Below are positions 1 to 61,246 of a DNA stretch of 64,000 bases, in pieces. Source of the stretch: Silvimonas terrae (GTDB lineage: Bacteria > Pseudomonadota > Gammaproteobacteria > Burkholderiales > Chitinibacteraceae); the NCBI RefSeq assembly GCF_014202765.1, contig NZ_JACHHN010000006.1:1-64000 (forward strand), given 5' to 3'. The notes under the pieces were generated by a model that was not told the DNA's origin, did not search any database, and saw nothing but the letters and a program-made list of their open reading frames with translations. Position 1 is the first letter of the stretch, and every line of letters starts with the position of its first letter. The position numbers and the translations under genes are program-made.

Positions 1-130
1 CCCTGCGCTTCTCGTGAGGGCCGGCTGGCTCCAGGGAACTCGCTACGCTCAAACACCCTTACGCCGAAACCCCGGCCCTCCCTGCGATGCTCGGCACTGT
101 CGGAGGGGAGGTATGTCAAAAGCAACGGCA
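1..130 (+). repeat. Structured long repeat, copy A (cut by window edge)
   Basis: 3' half of the long repeat family described under findings; its 5' half lies before the window. It shows the family landmarks: CCCTGCGCTTCTCG, a 9-bp long-range stem (GAGGGCCGG at 16-24 with CCGGCCCTC at 72-80), a small hairpin GCTACGC, and the end motif GGAGGGGAGG followed by CAAAAGCAAC. The stem sequence differs from the other copies but still pairs perfectly. No gene is supported anywhere in 1-998; the open frames here are low-complexity translations of repeats. Confidence 0.8.
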
Positions 131-614: not shown

Positions 615-825
615 CTTTGATGTTCTCCCCCCATCAAAGCCCAGCGCCGAAGGAGTGGAGGGAGACCCCAGGCTCCCGACCGACTGAGGGAAGCCCGGAG
701 GGCCGCCAGGCTGGGGTCGCCTTTCTTTGCCTACTTTCTTTGGCGAAGCAAAGAAAGTAGGGTGCTCCCGCCACCGCGGGTATCAAATGCTTTTAAAAGA
801 CCCGCGCCGCAAGGCGCTAACACGC
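615..825 (-). repeat. Structured long repeat, copy B (minus strand, variant 3' half)
   Basis: On the minus strand this reads GTTAGCGCC...GGCGCG, then the CCCGC-GGTG-GCGGG hairpin (767-780) and a long hairpin CCTACTTTCTTTG/CAAAGAAAGTAGG (730-761). The latter pairs CCTAC with GTAGG where other copies pair GTTAC with GTAAC. The 3' half diverges from the other copies but has its own stem, GACCCCAG (664-671) with CTGGGGTC (711-718). It converges on copy A. Confidence 0.75.
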
Positions 826-911
826 TTTCCCAACCCTCAGAGGCACAGACCACCAAGCCACCTTCTGGTGCACCCCCCTCTACCACCTCCCCCCACCGTC
901 CATGCCCCAAC

Positions 912-10805: not shown

Positions 10806-10998
10806 CTTGAAAGGTACCCCCGAAACGGCGTATCGAGATTGTTCTTTGCACCTGACCTGTCCGCTTGTGGCGGGGCCCGGTTATCCAGGAAACAGCTGAC
10901 CGCCCAATTTGATCGCGCGGGCGCGCGTCAGTATTGATGCGTATCCTGTTTTTGGCAGAAAAATCCCTGATATGCCAATCAGGTTTGTCCTGATGCGG
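10806..10998 (-). other. Upstream region of the nucleoside operon
   Basis: About 190 bp between the nupX-like start and the tandem arrays. It must hold the operon promoter, but I could not pick a convincing -35/-10 pair or a DeoR/CytR-type operator by eye. Confidence 0.4.
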
Positions 10999-11054
10999 GA
11001 GTGAGGAGTGAGGAGTGAGGAGTGAGGAGTGAGGAGTGAGGAGTGAGGAGTGAG
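10999..11054 (+). repeat. Heptanucleotide tandem array (GAGTGAG)8
   Basis: Eight perfect copies of the 7-bp unit GAGTGAG plus one degenerate unit (GAATGAC). Confidence 0.95.
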
Positions 11055-11106
11055 GAATGACGACGTAGAGGTGTGCAAGGGGCGGTGAACTGGCCACAGA
11101 ATCTGG

Positions 11107-11190
11107 CACACCGCACACCGCACACCGCACACCGCACACCGCACACCGCACACCGCACACCTCACCCCTCACCCCTCACACCTCACCCCG
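11107..11190 (+). repeat. Heptanucleotide tandem array CACACCG/CACCCCT (12 units)
   Basis: Seven perfect CACACCG units, then five variants (CACACCT, CACCCCT, CACCCCT, CACACCT, CACCCCG) that keep the 7-bp phase and end exactly at the base before the msrP stop codon (11191). Confidence 0.95.
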
Positions 11191-32561: not shown

Positions 32562-32589
32562 CGTCATTCCGGCGAAAGCCGGAATCCAG
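32562..32589 (+). repeat. Short palindromic repeat, CGTCATTCC family
   Basis: CGTCATTCCGGC, loop, GCCGGAATCCAG. It is the left member of a repeat cluster that fills 32458-33059, where no gene is supported. Confidence 0.85.
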
Positions 32590-32687: not shown

Positions 32688-32722
32688 GTAGGGTGGATTC
32701 GGAGCGATAGCGACAATCCACC
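32688..32722 (+). repeat. Short palindromic repeat, GTAGGGTGGATT family
   Basis: 35-bp element from GTAGGGTGGATT to AATCCACC with a GGAGCGATAGCGA core. Identical copies are at 38290 and 53220, and a shortened one at 61270. It lies about 25 bp before long repeat copy C. A decayed relative is at about 32640-32676. Confidence 0.85.
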
Positions 32723-32748: not shown

Positions 32749-33008
32749 GTTAGCGCCTTTGGCGCGAGTTTGAAAGGCATTTTGATACCGGCGGTGGCCG
32801 GAGCACGTTACTTTCTTTGCTTCGCCAAAGAAAGTAACCAAAGAAAGGCGACCCCTGCGACAGCGCCCACTACGTGGGTTCCCTGCGCTTCTCACAAGGC
32901 GCGGCTGGCTGCGGGAACTCGGCCTGCGGCCTCAAACACCCCTCCGCCGAAACCCCGCACCTTGCTGCGATGCTCGGCGCTGCCGGAGGGGAGGTACGTC
33001 AAAAGCAA
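32749..33008 (+). repeat. Structured long repeat, copy C
   Basis: Full-length copy. Stems: GCGCC/GGCGC (32753-32765), CCGGC-GGTG-GCCGG (32788-32801), GTTACTTTCTTTG/CAAAGAAAGTAAC (32807-32838), CCCAC-TAC-GTGGG, long-range AAGGCGCGG (32896-32904) with CCGCACCTT (32955-32963; one mismatch), GCCTGCGGC hairpin. It ends GGAGGGGAGG then CAAAAGCAAC repeated. It sits just past the fba stop codon. Confidence 0.85.
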
Positions 33009-37982: not shown

Positions 37983-38230
37983 GTTAGCGCCTTCGGCGCG
38001 GTGTTTACATACCCGCGGTGGCGGGAGCACGTTACTTTTCTTTGCTTCGCCAAAGAACAGTAACCAAAAGAAAGGCGACCCTGCGACAGCGCCCTTCGGG
38101 TTCCCTGCGCTTCTCGCAAAGTCCGGCTGGCTCCAGGGAACTCGCCCTACGGGCTCAGACACCCTTACGCCGAAACCCCGGACTTTGCTGCGATGCTCGG
38201 CGCTGCCGGAGGGGAGGCAAGTCAAAAGCA
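37983..38230 (+). repeat. Structured long repeat, copy D
   Basis: Full-length copy. CCCGC-GGTG-GCGGG (38012-38025), GTTACTTTTCTTTG hairpin, CCC-TTC-GGG, long-range AAAGTCCGG (38118-38126) with CCGGACTTT (38178-38186; perfect), CCCTACGGG hairpin, end GGAGGGGAGG, tail CAAAAGCAACCCCAAC. It lies between glpK and glpD. Confidence 0.85.
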
Positions 38231-38258
38231 ACCCCAACGGCATGCACCCCAACTACCC

Positions 38259-58636: not shown

Positions 58637-58678
58637 CGTCATTCCGGTCCTCGGCGGCCCCCTTGAGCCGGAATCCAG
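58637..58678 (+). repeat. Short palindromic repeat, CGTCATTCC family (long loop)
   Basis: CGTCATTCCGG ... CCGGAATCCAG with a longer loop than other copies. Confidence 0.75.
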
Positions 58679-58680
58679 CG

Positions 58681-59231
58681 CCGTAGCCCGGATGAAGCGC
58701 AGCGAGAATCCGAGGTAACTACCCCGGCCCATGTCGCCACCCCGGATTTCCGGCCTGACGGCCTCCATCCGGGCTACGGTTTGTAGATTGGTCATCACTG
58801 CCTCACAGGCAGTCCACAAACAGCGCCGTAGCCCGGATGAAGCCCAGCGAGAATCCGGGGTAATTACCCTGGCCCATATCGCCACCCCGGATTCCCGGCC
58901 TGACGGCCTCCATCCGGGCTACGGTTTGTTGATTGGTCATCACTGCCTCACAGGCAGTCCACAAACAGCGCCGTAGCCCGGATGAAGCGCAGCGAGAATC
59001 CGGGGTGACTACCCTGGACAGTATCGCCACCCCGGATTCCCGGCCTGACGGCCTCCATCCGGGCTACGGTTTGTAGATTGGTCATCACTGCCTCACAGGC
59101 AGTCCACAAACAGCGCCGTAGCCCGGATGAAGCGCAGCGAGAATCCGGGGTAATTACCCTGGCCCATATCGCCACCCCGGATTCCCGGCCTGATGGCCTC
59201 CATCCGGGCTACGGGATTGGTCATTGCTGTC
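58681..59231. repeat. 145-bp tandem array with GTAGCCCGGATG palindromes
   Basis: Units start at 58681, 58826, 58971 and 59116 (exact 145-bp spacing); the last is shortened by about 6 bp and runs into the ctaE stop codon. Each unit has a palindrome with arms GTAGCCCGGATG and CATCCGGGCTAC, and a segment that matches the last codons and stop of ctaE on the minus strand. No gene is supported in 58471-59231. Confidence 0.95.
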
Positions 59232-60098
59232 TCACAGGCAGTACACAAAGACGAACAGTCCCAGCCAGACCACGTCCACAAAGTGCCAGTACCAGGCCGC
59301 GGCTTCGAAGCCAAAATGATGTTCCGGCGTGAAGTGGCCCTTGAGCACGCGGCCCAGCATGACCGAGAGCATGATCGCCCCCACCAGCACGTGCATGCCG
59401 TGAAAACCGGTCAACATGAAGAAGGTCATGCCGTATGCGCCGGAGGCCAGCGTCAGGTGCATTTGCGTATAAGCGTGGTGGTATTCAAAGGCTTGCAGCA
59501 CCAGGAACACCGCGCCCAGTGCCACAGTCAGCGCCAGACCCAATGCCATTTGCGTTCGGTTGTTCTTCACAAAGCCCCAGTGCGCCCAGGTCACGGTAAT
59601 GCCGGAAGTCAGCAGCAATGCCGTGTTGATGGCGGGAATCCCAAAGGCTTCCATCGGCGTGTAGGGCGCAATTTTCGGCCCGCTCACACCCGGCCAGGTG
59701 GCTTTGAAGGCCGGCCAGAGCTGCTCATGCGTGTCCGAGAACCAGCCTAGCTCCGGCACAGAGATGGTGCGGGTGTAGAACAGTGCGCCAAAGAACGCGG
59801 CGAAAAACATGACTTCTGAAAAAATGAACCAGCTCATGCCCCAGCGGAAAGAATGATCCACTTGCTGGCCGTAATCGCCGTGTTGCGATTCGGTGATCAC
59901 ATCGCGGAACCAGCCAATCAGCATGTGGATCAGGATCAAAAACCCCGCCAGCAGCAGCCACTTGCCCAACTGCATGTCGTTGATCCAGAGCGCGGTGCCA
60001 CAGGTCATGCAGAACAGCGCAATCGACCCGGTAATCGGCCAGCGCGAAGGTTCTGGCACGTAGTAGTGCGCGTCGTGAATGCCGTTTTCTACGTTCAT
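59232..60098 (-). CDS. ctaE: Cytochrome c oxidase subunit III
   Basis: 288-residue membrane subunit with seven helices (WGMSWFIFSEVMFFAAFFGALFY, TGFHGMHVLVGAIML, EAAAWYWHFVDVVWLGLFVFVYCL). It supports the proton-pumping core. Length is typical. The 3' end is duplicated in the tandem array that follows. Confidence 0.96.
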   Translation of the reverse strand: MNVENGIHDAHYYVPEPSRWPITGSIALFCMTCGTALWINDMQLGKWLLLAGFLILIHMLIGWFRDVITESQHGDYGQQVDHSFRWGMSWFIFSEVMFFAAFFGALFYTRTISVPELGWFSDTHEQLWPAFKATWPGVSGPKIAPYTPMEAFGIPAINTALLLTSGITVTWAHWGFVKNNRTQMALGLALTVALGAVFLVLQAFEYHHAYTQMHLTLASGAYGMTFFMLTGFHGMHVLVGAIMLSVMLGRVLKGHFTPEHHFGFEAAAWYWHFVDVVWLGLFVFVYCL

Positions 60099-61003: not shown

Positions 61004-61246
61004 GTTAGCGCCTTGCGGCGCGATTGTTTACCTACCCGGGGTGCCGGGCCCACGTTACTTTTCTTTGCTTCGCCAAAGAAAAGTAACCAAAAGAAAGGCG
61101 ACCCTGCGACAACGCCCTGCGGGTTCCCTGCGCTTCTCGCAAAGTCCGGCTGGCTGCGGGAACTCGCTTCGCTCAAACACCCCTCCGCCGAAACCCCGGA
61201 CTTCGCTGCGATGCTCGGCGCTGCCGGAGGGGGGCAGGTCAAAAGC
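61004..61246 (+). repeat. Structured long repeat, copy F
   Basis: Full-length copy, antisense to the surrounding cox genes. CCCGG-GGTG-CCGGG (61035-61048), GTTACTTTTCTTTG/CAAAGAAAAGTAAC, CCC-TGC-GGG, AAGTCCGG (61142-61149) with CCGGACTT (61196-61203), GCTTCGC hairpin, end CGGAGGGGGG. The tail CAAAAGCC is shorter than elsewhere. Confidence 0.85.

Follow-up and report, generated by a model that had tools for sequence, protein, structure and literature searches.

A structured repeat family of Silvimonas terrae with a predicted hairpin-triplex core and a possible mobile origin

We analyzed a family of structured repeats carried by a 64,000-nt stretch of the Silvimonas terrae genome (contig NZ_JACHHN010000006.1, positions 1 to 64,000, forward strand; hereafter, the window), in which a 260-nt element at 32749..33008, copy C, is one of several related copies. 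The first-pass annotation of this DNA counted six copies. Four of them (C, D, E and F) are full elements, D, E and F being 78–82% identical to C, and copy A is cut by the window edge, all five lying on the plus strand. B, on the minus strand, turned out not to be a sixth copy but another arm: its match is limited to about the first 124 positions (minus strand, from 820/829 to 687), and its 3′ half is a module of a different type, called type B below. The window is collinear with the genomes of Silvimonas amylolytica (G001) and a second sister species (G002) at identities of 77–92%, and the state of the matching sites in these genomes is given with each copy.

1..125, plus strand: copy A, the 3′ part of a type A element, with its left part outside the window.
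687..829, minus strand: arm B, the shared 5′ domain of ~110 nt followed leftward by a type B 3′ module; convergent partner of A.
32749..33008, plus strand: copy C, full type A element of 260 nt; matching site empty in G001 and G002.
37983..38231, plus strand: copy D, full type A element; G001 has no copy at the site, G002 has two in tandem.
53267..53527, plus strand: copy E, full type A element whose core hairpin contains a 14-nt insert; G001 has no copy at the site, G002 has one.
61004..61246, plus strand: copy F, full type A element with an asymmetric arm and a mirror third tract; site empty in G001 and G002.

A search of the whole S. terrae genome (4.83 Mb in 15 contigs) returned 214 first-look candidates. 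The best 40 of the 214 were scored, and every one reached E ≤ 1.5e-60, which excludes chance. One 317-kb contig (C6), taken whole, contained nine full copies, all nine on the plus strand. Closer sampling of this genome covered 857 kb, in stretches partly chosen around known copies.

The copies have in common a 5′ domain of ~110 nt, composed of a TTAGCGCC..GGCGC hairpin, a second GC hairpin, a core of the form GTTACTTTCTTTG-loop-CAAAGAAAGTAAC and then CAAAGAAAG. The 3′ modules joined to this domain are swappable: type A consists of P1, P2 and AACTCG-hairpin-CTCAAACA, type B and one variant carry other hairpins, and the copies of a further genome of the genus (G003) have a very short 3′ module. 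We aligned 56 distinct type A copies from three genomes of the genus (alignment A1) and named 43 base pairs, which are formed in 95.1% of the alignment cells. When partners were slid by 1–3 columns, pairing fell to only 39–51% of cells. Both sides changed in 19 of the 43 pairs, compared with a column-shuffle mean of 10.8, and none of 500 shuffles reached 19. The parts of copy C, with their behavior in this alignment, are as follows.

32753..32765, plus strand: hairpin 1, GCGCC/GGCGC (helix 1), paired in 99.6% of cells.
32788..32801, plus strand: hairpin 2, CCGGC-GGTG-GCCGG (helix 2), with two pairs that change on both sides.
32807..32838, plus strand: core hairpin GTTACTTTCTTTG-CTTCGC-CAAAGAAAGTAAC, whose outer pairs are helices 3 and 4.
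32839..32847, plus strand: third purine tract CAAAGAAAG, mirror partner of the purine arm of the hairpin; symmetric in copy C, which is itself therefore uninformative on the order.
32896..32904, plus strand: 5′ strand of the long-range stem P1, AAGGCGCGG (helix 6), with two-sided change in 6 of 9 pairs.
32916..32938, plus strand: AACTCG-hairpin-CTCAAACA module, also present in other taxa.
32955..32963, plus strand: 3′ strand of P1, CCGCACCTT, part of the covariation set.

P1 is the main carrier of the covariation, one of its pairs being seen as C-G, U-A and G-C, and the two helices that cross it are weakly supported or not supported (one and zero two-sided pairs; one of these helices forms in 79.5% of cells). 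The stem 2 pairs, the long-range stem and the CCTAC/GTAGG pairs of B read as they had been quoted, with one C·A mismatch in P1 of copy C, whereas the GGTG loop, described as invariant, is replaced by AGTG, TGTG or GGTT in other copies. The stems are kept by matching changes, and the selection on structure suggested by the first-pass annotation is borne out by covariation in the 56 copies. Because column shuffles ignore the kinship of the copies, a test across taxa matters more. This test used 32 rows from loci outside the S. terrae genome, two of them from S. amylolytica and some from related metagenome-assembled genomes (MAGs), in which the stem flanking AACTCG..CTCRRACA had a mean of 7.3 pairs, compared with 3.4 when partners were shuffled among loci (maximum 4.4 in 200 shuffles). 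Chitinophaga copies, compared by eye, carry a different hairpin in which the entire stem is exchanged between copies.

The order of bases in the third tract discriminates between two structures for the core. A third tract that only competed for the pyrimidine arm would be a direct copy of the purine arm, whereas a triplex calls for its mirror image. The usual tract, AAAGAAA, reads alike in both orders, and it is the copies with one extra base that are decisive. With a pattern for asymmetric arms that allowed either order, the genus gave 37 matches over four genomes, 15 of one arm form and 22 of the second, and three additional genera gave 6; all 43 were mirror images, giving in each case three tracts able to form the triads of an intrastrand triplex repeat. 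A looser scan of the loci, with copies partly shared with these 43, yielded 34 asymmetric arms, of which 29 fit the mirror order only, 2 fit both orders, 3 neither and 0 the direct order only. The copies are related, so the 43 matches do not amount to 43 independent events; yet both arm forms occur within the genus, and several genera have forms of their own: Thiobacillus-like loci, for instance, combine AAGAAAA with AAAAGAAG, and Marinobacterium combines AAGGAAA with AAAGGAAG. An alternative hairpin, with the third tract as a direct repeat, is ruled out by this test. The core is a hairpin followed by a third purine tract in mirror order, as an intrastrand triplex requires, and from this order a triplex geometry is predicted.

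The core is not confined to the genus: Bacteroidota, Fusobacteriota, Selenomonadaceae, Pasteurellaceae and other groups also carry it, often with the AACTCG-hairpin-CTCRRACA module alongside. Among the matches listed in a scan for the exact core were Chitinophaga and MAGs of Bacteroidales and Cytophagales within Bacteroidota, a Selenomonadaceae MAG, Pasteurellaceae, Cardiobacteriaceae, Burkholderiales, Thiobacillus, Marinobacterium, Lysobacter and Luteimonas; an Ilyobacter plasmid carries near copies. The exact patterns, which undercount, are rare in the phylum: the asymmetric one was found in 4 of 398 genomes and the symmetric one in 1 of 398, S. terrae itself being included in both. A link to phages was rejected, as we found no exact core in viral contigs and no blastn match in phages; a 71-nt query had no blastn match in E. 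coli either.

The copies vary in presence between the sister species. The sites matching C and F are gaps of ~66–107 bases in both G001 and G002, from which the copies are absent, and those matching D and E are gaps of ~139 and ~32 bases in G001; G002 is occupied at both, by two copies at D and a single one at E. Each of the four full window copies is thus lacking at the corresponding site of at least one of the two sister species, and copies are gained or lost over the divergence between such species.

Type A copies are almost always on the leading strand in three of the four genomes of the genus (G000, that is, S. terrae itself, G002 and G003). The best 40 of the 214 S. terrae candidates have a single orientation per contig, and on nine contigs with clear GC skew all 36 top copies lie on the G-rich (leading) strand, two contigs with 4 copies (C5 and C7) being unclear; skew was read from sampled stretches except on C6, which was read whole. 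By the sign of regional skew in the 857-kb sample, type A copies are 32 leading, 3 lagging and 2 unclear (4 typed by eye), full type B copies are 16 lagging, 5 leading and 1 unclear, and partial hits are 6 lagging and 1 leading. All 11 copies in G002 (5 typed by eye) and all nine clear copies in G003 (7 others unclear) are leading, and each of these genomes has one type B copy, which is lagging. Among 34 listed of the 43 matches in G003, minus outnumbers plus 11 to 2 before ~2.2 Mb, where the skew changes sign, and plus outnumbers minus 16 to 5 after it. Gene direction does not explain this polarity, the upstream gene being co-directional in 20 of 35 cases and the downstream gene in 11 of 35.

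Neighboring full cores no more than 1.5 kb apart were convergent in 10 of 10 cases in the S. terrae sample. Outside this genome, 17 pairs were convergent, two were in the order ++, one was −− and eight were −+, six of the last being one hairpin read twice, which leaves two truly divergent pairs; these outside counts include some near-duplicate MAGs, and the numbers of the same scan for S. terrae count some places twice. Arms of types A and B often face each other with their cores outermost and 0.3–0.45 kb between them, as A and B do in the window, and in Rubrivivax and Thiobacillus-like units two arm types are paired, in one order or the other (by eye). Terminal inverted repeats were present in eight units, with inverted arms of 47–282 nt; single arms are also frequent among the copies. 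In G327, a genome from the same order, two 282-nt arms that are 98% alike (L186, 1778–5071) enclose 2.7 kb with genes for a PAAR protein, a Tae4-type amidase and a DUF6402 protein and with two open reading frames (ORFs) without a family. In a Chitinophaga unit (L160), CACATGGTG was seen by eye on both sides; we do not claim a target duplication there, as eight other units gave nothing above controls.

Other repeats lie in or near the elements. Copy E (53267–53527) and many other S. terrae copies have a GC block of ~14 nt, with the core sequence CCTCGGCGGCC, inside the core hairpin, and CGTC-type repeats carry this block in their hairpins too. The 857-kb sample contains it 42 times, mainly in these two settings, which gives it the look of a very small insertion with a preference for hairpin loops. 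Hexamer arrays separate arms A and B (CAAAAA at 135–203 and GCTGTT at 493–583), and akin to these are runs of AAAGCC or AACGGC downstream of many copies. Elsewhere in the window, a 145-bp unit with GTAG-type palindromes is present in four tandem copies at 58676–59249, and two short tandem arrays of 7-bp units, GGAGTGA and GCACACC, lie at 10998–11190.

We propose, with a probability of roughly 0.43, that these repeats are a family of non-autonomous, structure-defined mobile elements whose folded single strand is recognized and which insert at replication forks. Each arm would comprise the 5′ end domain, with its two hairpins and then the hairpin-triplex, and a swappable 3′ module rich in covarying hairpins; two convergent arms, cores outermost, would bound a unit mostly of 0.3–1.1 kb, rarely longer and with genes inside. 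Replication forks would expose the single strand, and its fold would be recognized by an enzyme supplied in trans; on this view, both the polarity and the constraint on structure would be accounted for, and single copies would be remnants or one-ended products. The first-pass annotation had left the choice between a structured RNA and a structured DNA element; the structure stands, and the partner arm B, the mirror rule, the convergent pairs, the polarity and the presence/absence pattern together lean toward a mobile DNA element over a conventional RNA gene, with RNA versus DNA unsettled. More tentatively, the copies may belong to a mobile-element superfamily across at least four phyla, not described in the literature searched, whose ends are marked by a hairpin-triplex covarying on three strands and which inserts with replication polarity, the triplex being the recognition signal; we regard this wider claim as possible but doubtful.

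Several observations weigh against the mobile-element proposal. Empty sites could be losses, the two direct tandem copies at site D of G002 break the convergent pattern, and orientations are mixed within contigs in Chitinophaga skermanii (G441) and on four contigs of G001 (C1, C2, C3 and C8; not scored against skew). The hints on strand discussed below favor the minus strand, whereas type A copies place the plus strand on the lagging template. The short units are too small to contain a mobilizing gene, none of seven cargo ORFs in two large units matched a transposase family, and no direct repeat above controls was found at the eight units examined for target duplication, whose ends are approximate. 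The viral contigs, as noted, lack the exact core. The Y1 transposase family PF01797 had no match in S. terrae, G001, G002, C. skermanii or a Selenomonadaceae genome (G449), all of which bear copies, and among 20 Y1 genes of the remaining core-bearing genomes a single one lies within 2 kb of a core, a gene with a different repeat of its own. A RAYT was also rejected as the mobilizer, since the one near a core in Pasteurellaceae (G446) carries a GTAG-type repeat array of its own, with the core situated past the next gene. This RAYT-like gene (L240, 4038–4714) has five GTAGGGGCGTATG-type palindromes in and after it.

Among the alternatives, the strand that folds bears on a role as RNA. The triplex would be a class II purine motif on the plus strand and a class IV pyrimidine motif on the minus strand; of these, the pyrimidine motif can form in RNA and the purine motif cannot, and T-A-T triads drive the stability of the former (Holder 2015, PMC4666352). 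Core mismatches on the plus strand are A·C in 14 cases and G·T in 2 among 132 hairpins (18 versus 3 among 188 under a looser core definition), as if wobble were kept on the minus strand, and the named stems of alignment A1 have 28 A·C and 10 G·T. Motif chemistry and the A·C excess of the core point weakly to folding of the minus strand. These data, to which may be added one T-to-C change that recurs in several genera, are compatible with a structured non-coding RNA spread as a repeat, in which a minus-strand transcript with a U·A-U-rich class IV pyrimidine-motif triple helix and the hairpin module would act on neighboring transcripts or bind a protein; the mirror rule fits such a minus-strand triplex, RNA-capable as the motif is, equally well. 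We nevertheless consider this explanation unlikely. Seventeen of the 18 A·C mismatches are at one position, and thus reflect few independent events, while the two helices crossing P1 in A1 show the reverse (G·T 43, A·C 18). Folding energy was set aside as a guide to the strand: in 41 of 55 copies the minus strand folds more stably, yet an equal difference appears when 7 of these copies are shuffled, so that neither strand is preferred beyond shuffles. In favor of an RNA, the Pasteurellaceae element (G446) stands just before a gene that we take to be yebC, with its minus strand co-directional, but the position of the family relative to genes is inconsistent, and the mixed gene context led us to reject a leader or terminator role. 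An RNA would also leave the polarity and the convergent pairs without a reason.

That polarity could instead mark an element of replication or chromosome architecture, one orientation of a polar DNA structure being selected, or tolerated, because it stalls or guides forks or the segregation machinery. The leading-strand orientation in G000, G002 and G003 fits this, as does a published GC-rich triplex repeat that blocks DNA polymerase in vitro, though no in vivo effect was found (Holder 2015, PMC4666352). The mixed orientation in G001 and C. skermanii, the sister species without copies at the same sites and the rarity of the exact patterns (the 4 and 1 of 398 phylum genomes given above) make it improbable. 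Inverted arms with outward cores, variable cargo and high copy number are also what the ends of an ordinary DNA transposon family would give, as classical miniature inverted-repeat transposable elements (MITEs) whose transposase-bearing master copies were unsampled. This origin seems quite improbable given that short direct repeats were lacking at the approximate ends of the eight units and that the arms have an elaborate covarying structure and are often of two non-identical types, features unusual for transposase-bound ends.

Known families resemble the element in part. REP/REPIN and RAYT-associated terminal inverted repeat (TIR) families are likewise high-copy, intergenic, palindromic units with inverted dimers and a proposed single-strand mobilization (Di Nocera 2013, PMC3733652; Quentin 2018, PMC6006769), and the element is like them in copy number and pairing. 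It is, however, several times longer (150–260 nt versus a palindrome of 20–40 bp), its core lacks a GTAG or CGTC tag, and it does not flank a RAYT/Y1_Tnp gene in its genome as those families do. The GTAG- and CGTC-type repeats beside the element are separate neighboring families, and upstream of copy C such palindromic repeats occur at 32562–32589 and 32688–32722, in a genome in which, as stated, PF01797 had no match. IS200/IS605-type elements target the lagging-strand template (Quentin 2018, PMC6006769), which for non-autonomous elements of this type would predict polarity, but the arms of our element are inverted rather than on one strand, and several copy-rich genomes have no Y1 enzyme.

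BoxC (PIT, TM-ECO) shares the strand order Y-loop-R-loop-R and is intergenic, multi-copy and broadly distributed in proteobacteria; it is GC-rich (CCCTCNCCC...), about 37 nt long and without strand bias (Holder 2015, PMC4666352). The core of the element is instead A/T-rich and reads CTTTCTTTG-CAAAGAAAG-CAAAGAAAG where the BoxC/TM-ECO consensus is CCCTCNCCC-GGGNGAGGG-GGGNGAGGG. The element around it, 150–260 nt in length, has covarying modules, forms convergent pairs and in three genomes keeps to the leading strand; AAAGAAAG is absent from the main text of that paper. The element is thus like TM-ECO in tract order and unlike it in sequence, size and strand bias. Rfam structured RNAs have a comparably complex covarying fold, but no Rfam family matched above its gathering threshold (best sub-threshold E = 3.6), which is consistent with the earlier description of the repeat as uncharacterized; the four hits of the scan were tRNAs elsewhere in locus L104. 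Longer and shorter strings of the core sequence retrieved no paper, topic searches gave related work only, and the available sections of PMC2864571 and PMC2267715 hold nothing on the element. It lacks a tested defining feature of REP/REPIN, RAYT-TIR and BoxC/TM-ECO, and we place it in none of them.

The mirror-rule triplex core, the cross-phylum recurrence, the convergent pairs, the leading-strand polarity and the absence of copies in sister species are new beyond the first-pass annotation. The natural role of intrastrand triplexes is open: TM-ECO, the repeat studied best, is reported to fold in vitro and to correlate with genome instability, and earlier work cited in the same source saw no in vivo effect (PMC4666352). 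A three-strand mirror rule in several genera is sequence evidence of a constrained triplex geometry, and it supplies exact base changes for an in vitro test. If the superfamily reading were true, the rule would be comparative-sequence evidence for selection on a natural intrastrand triplex. Such repeats may also underlie spurious short ORFs in annotations. If the repeats are indeed mobile, they would be recognized in a way that is new for a repeat, and the existence of a long repeat that keeps to the leading strand would be accounted for.
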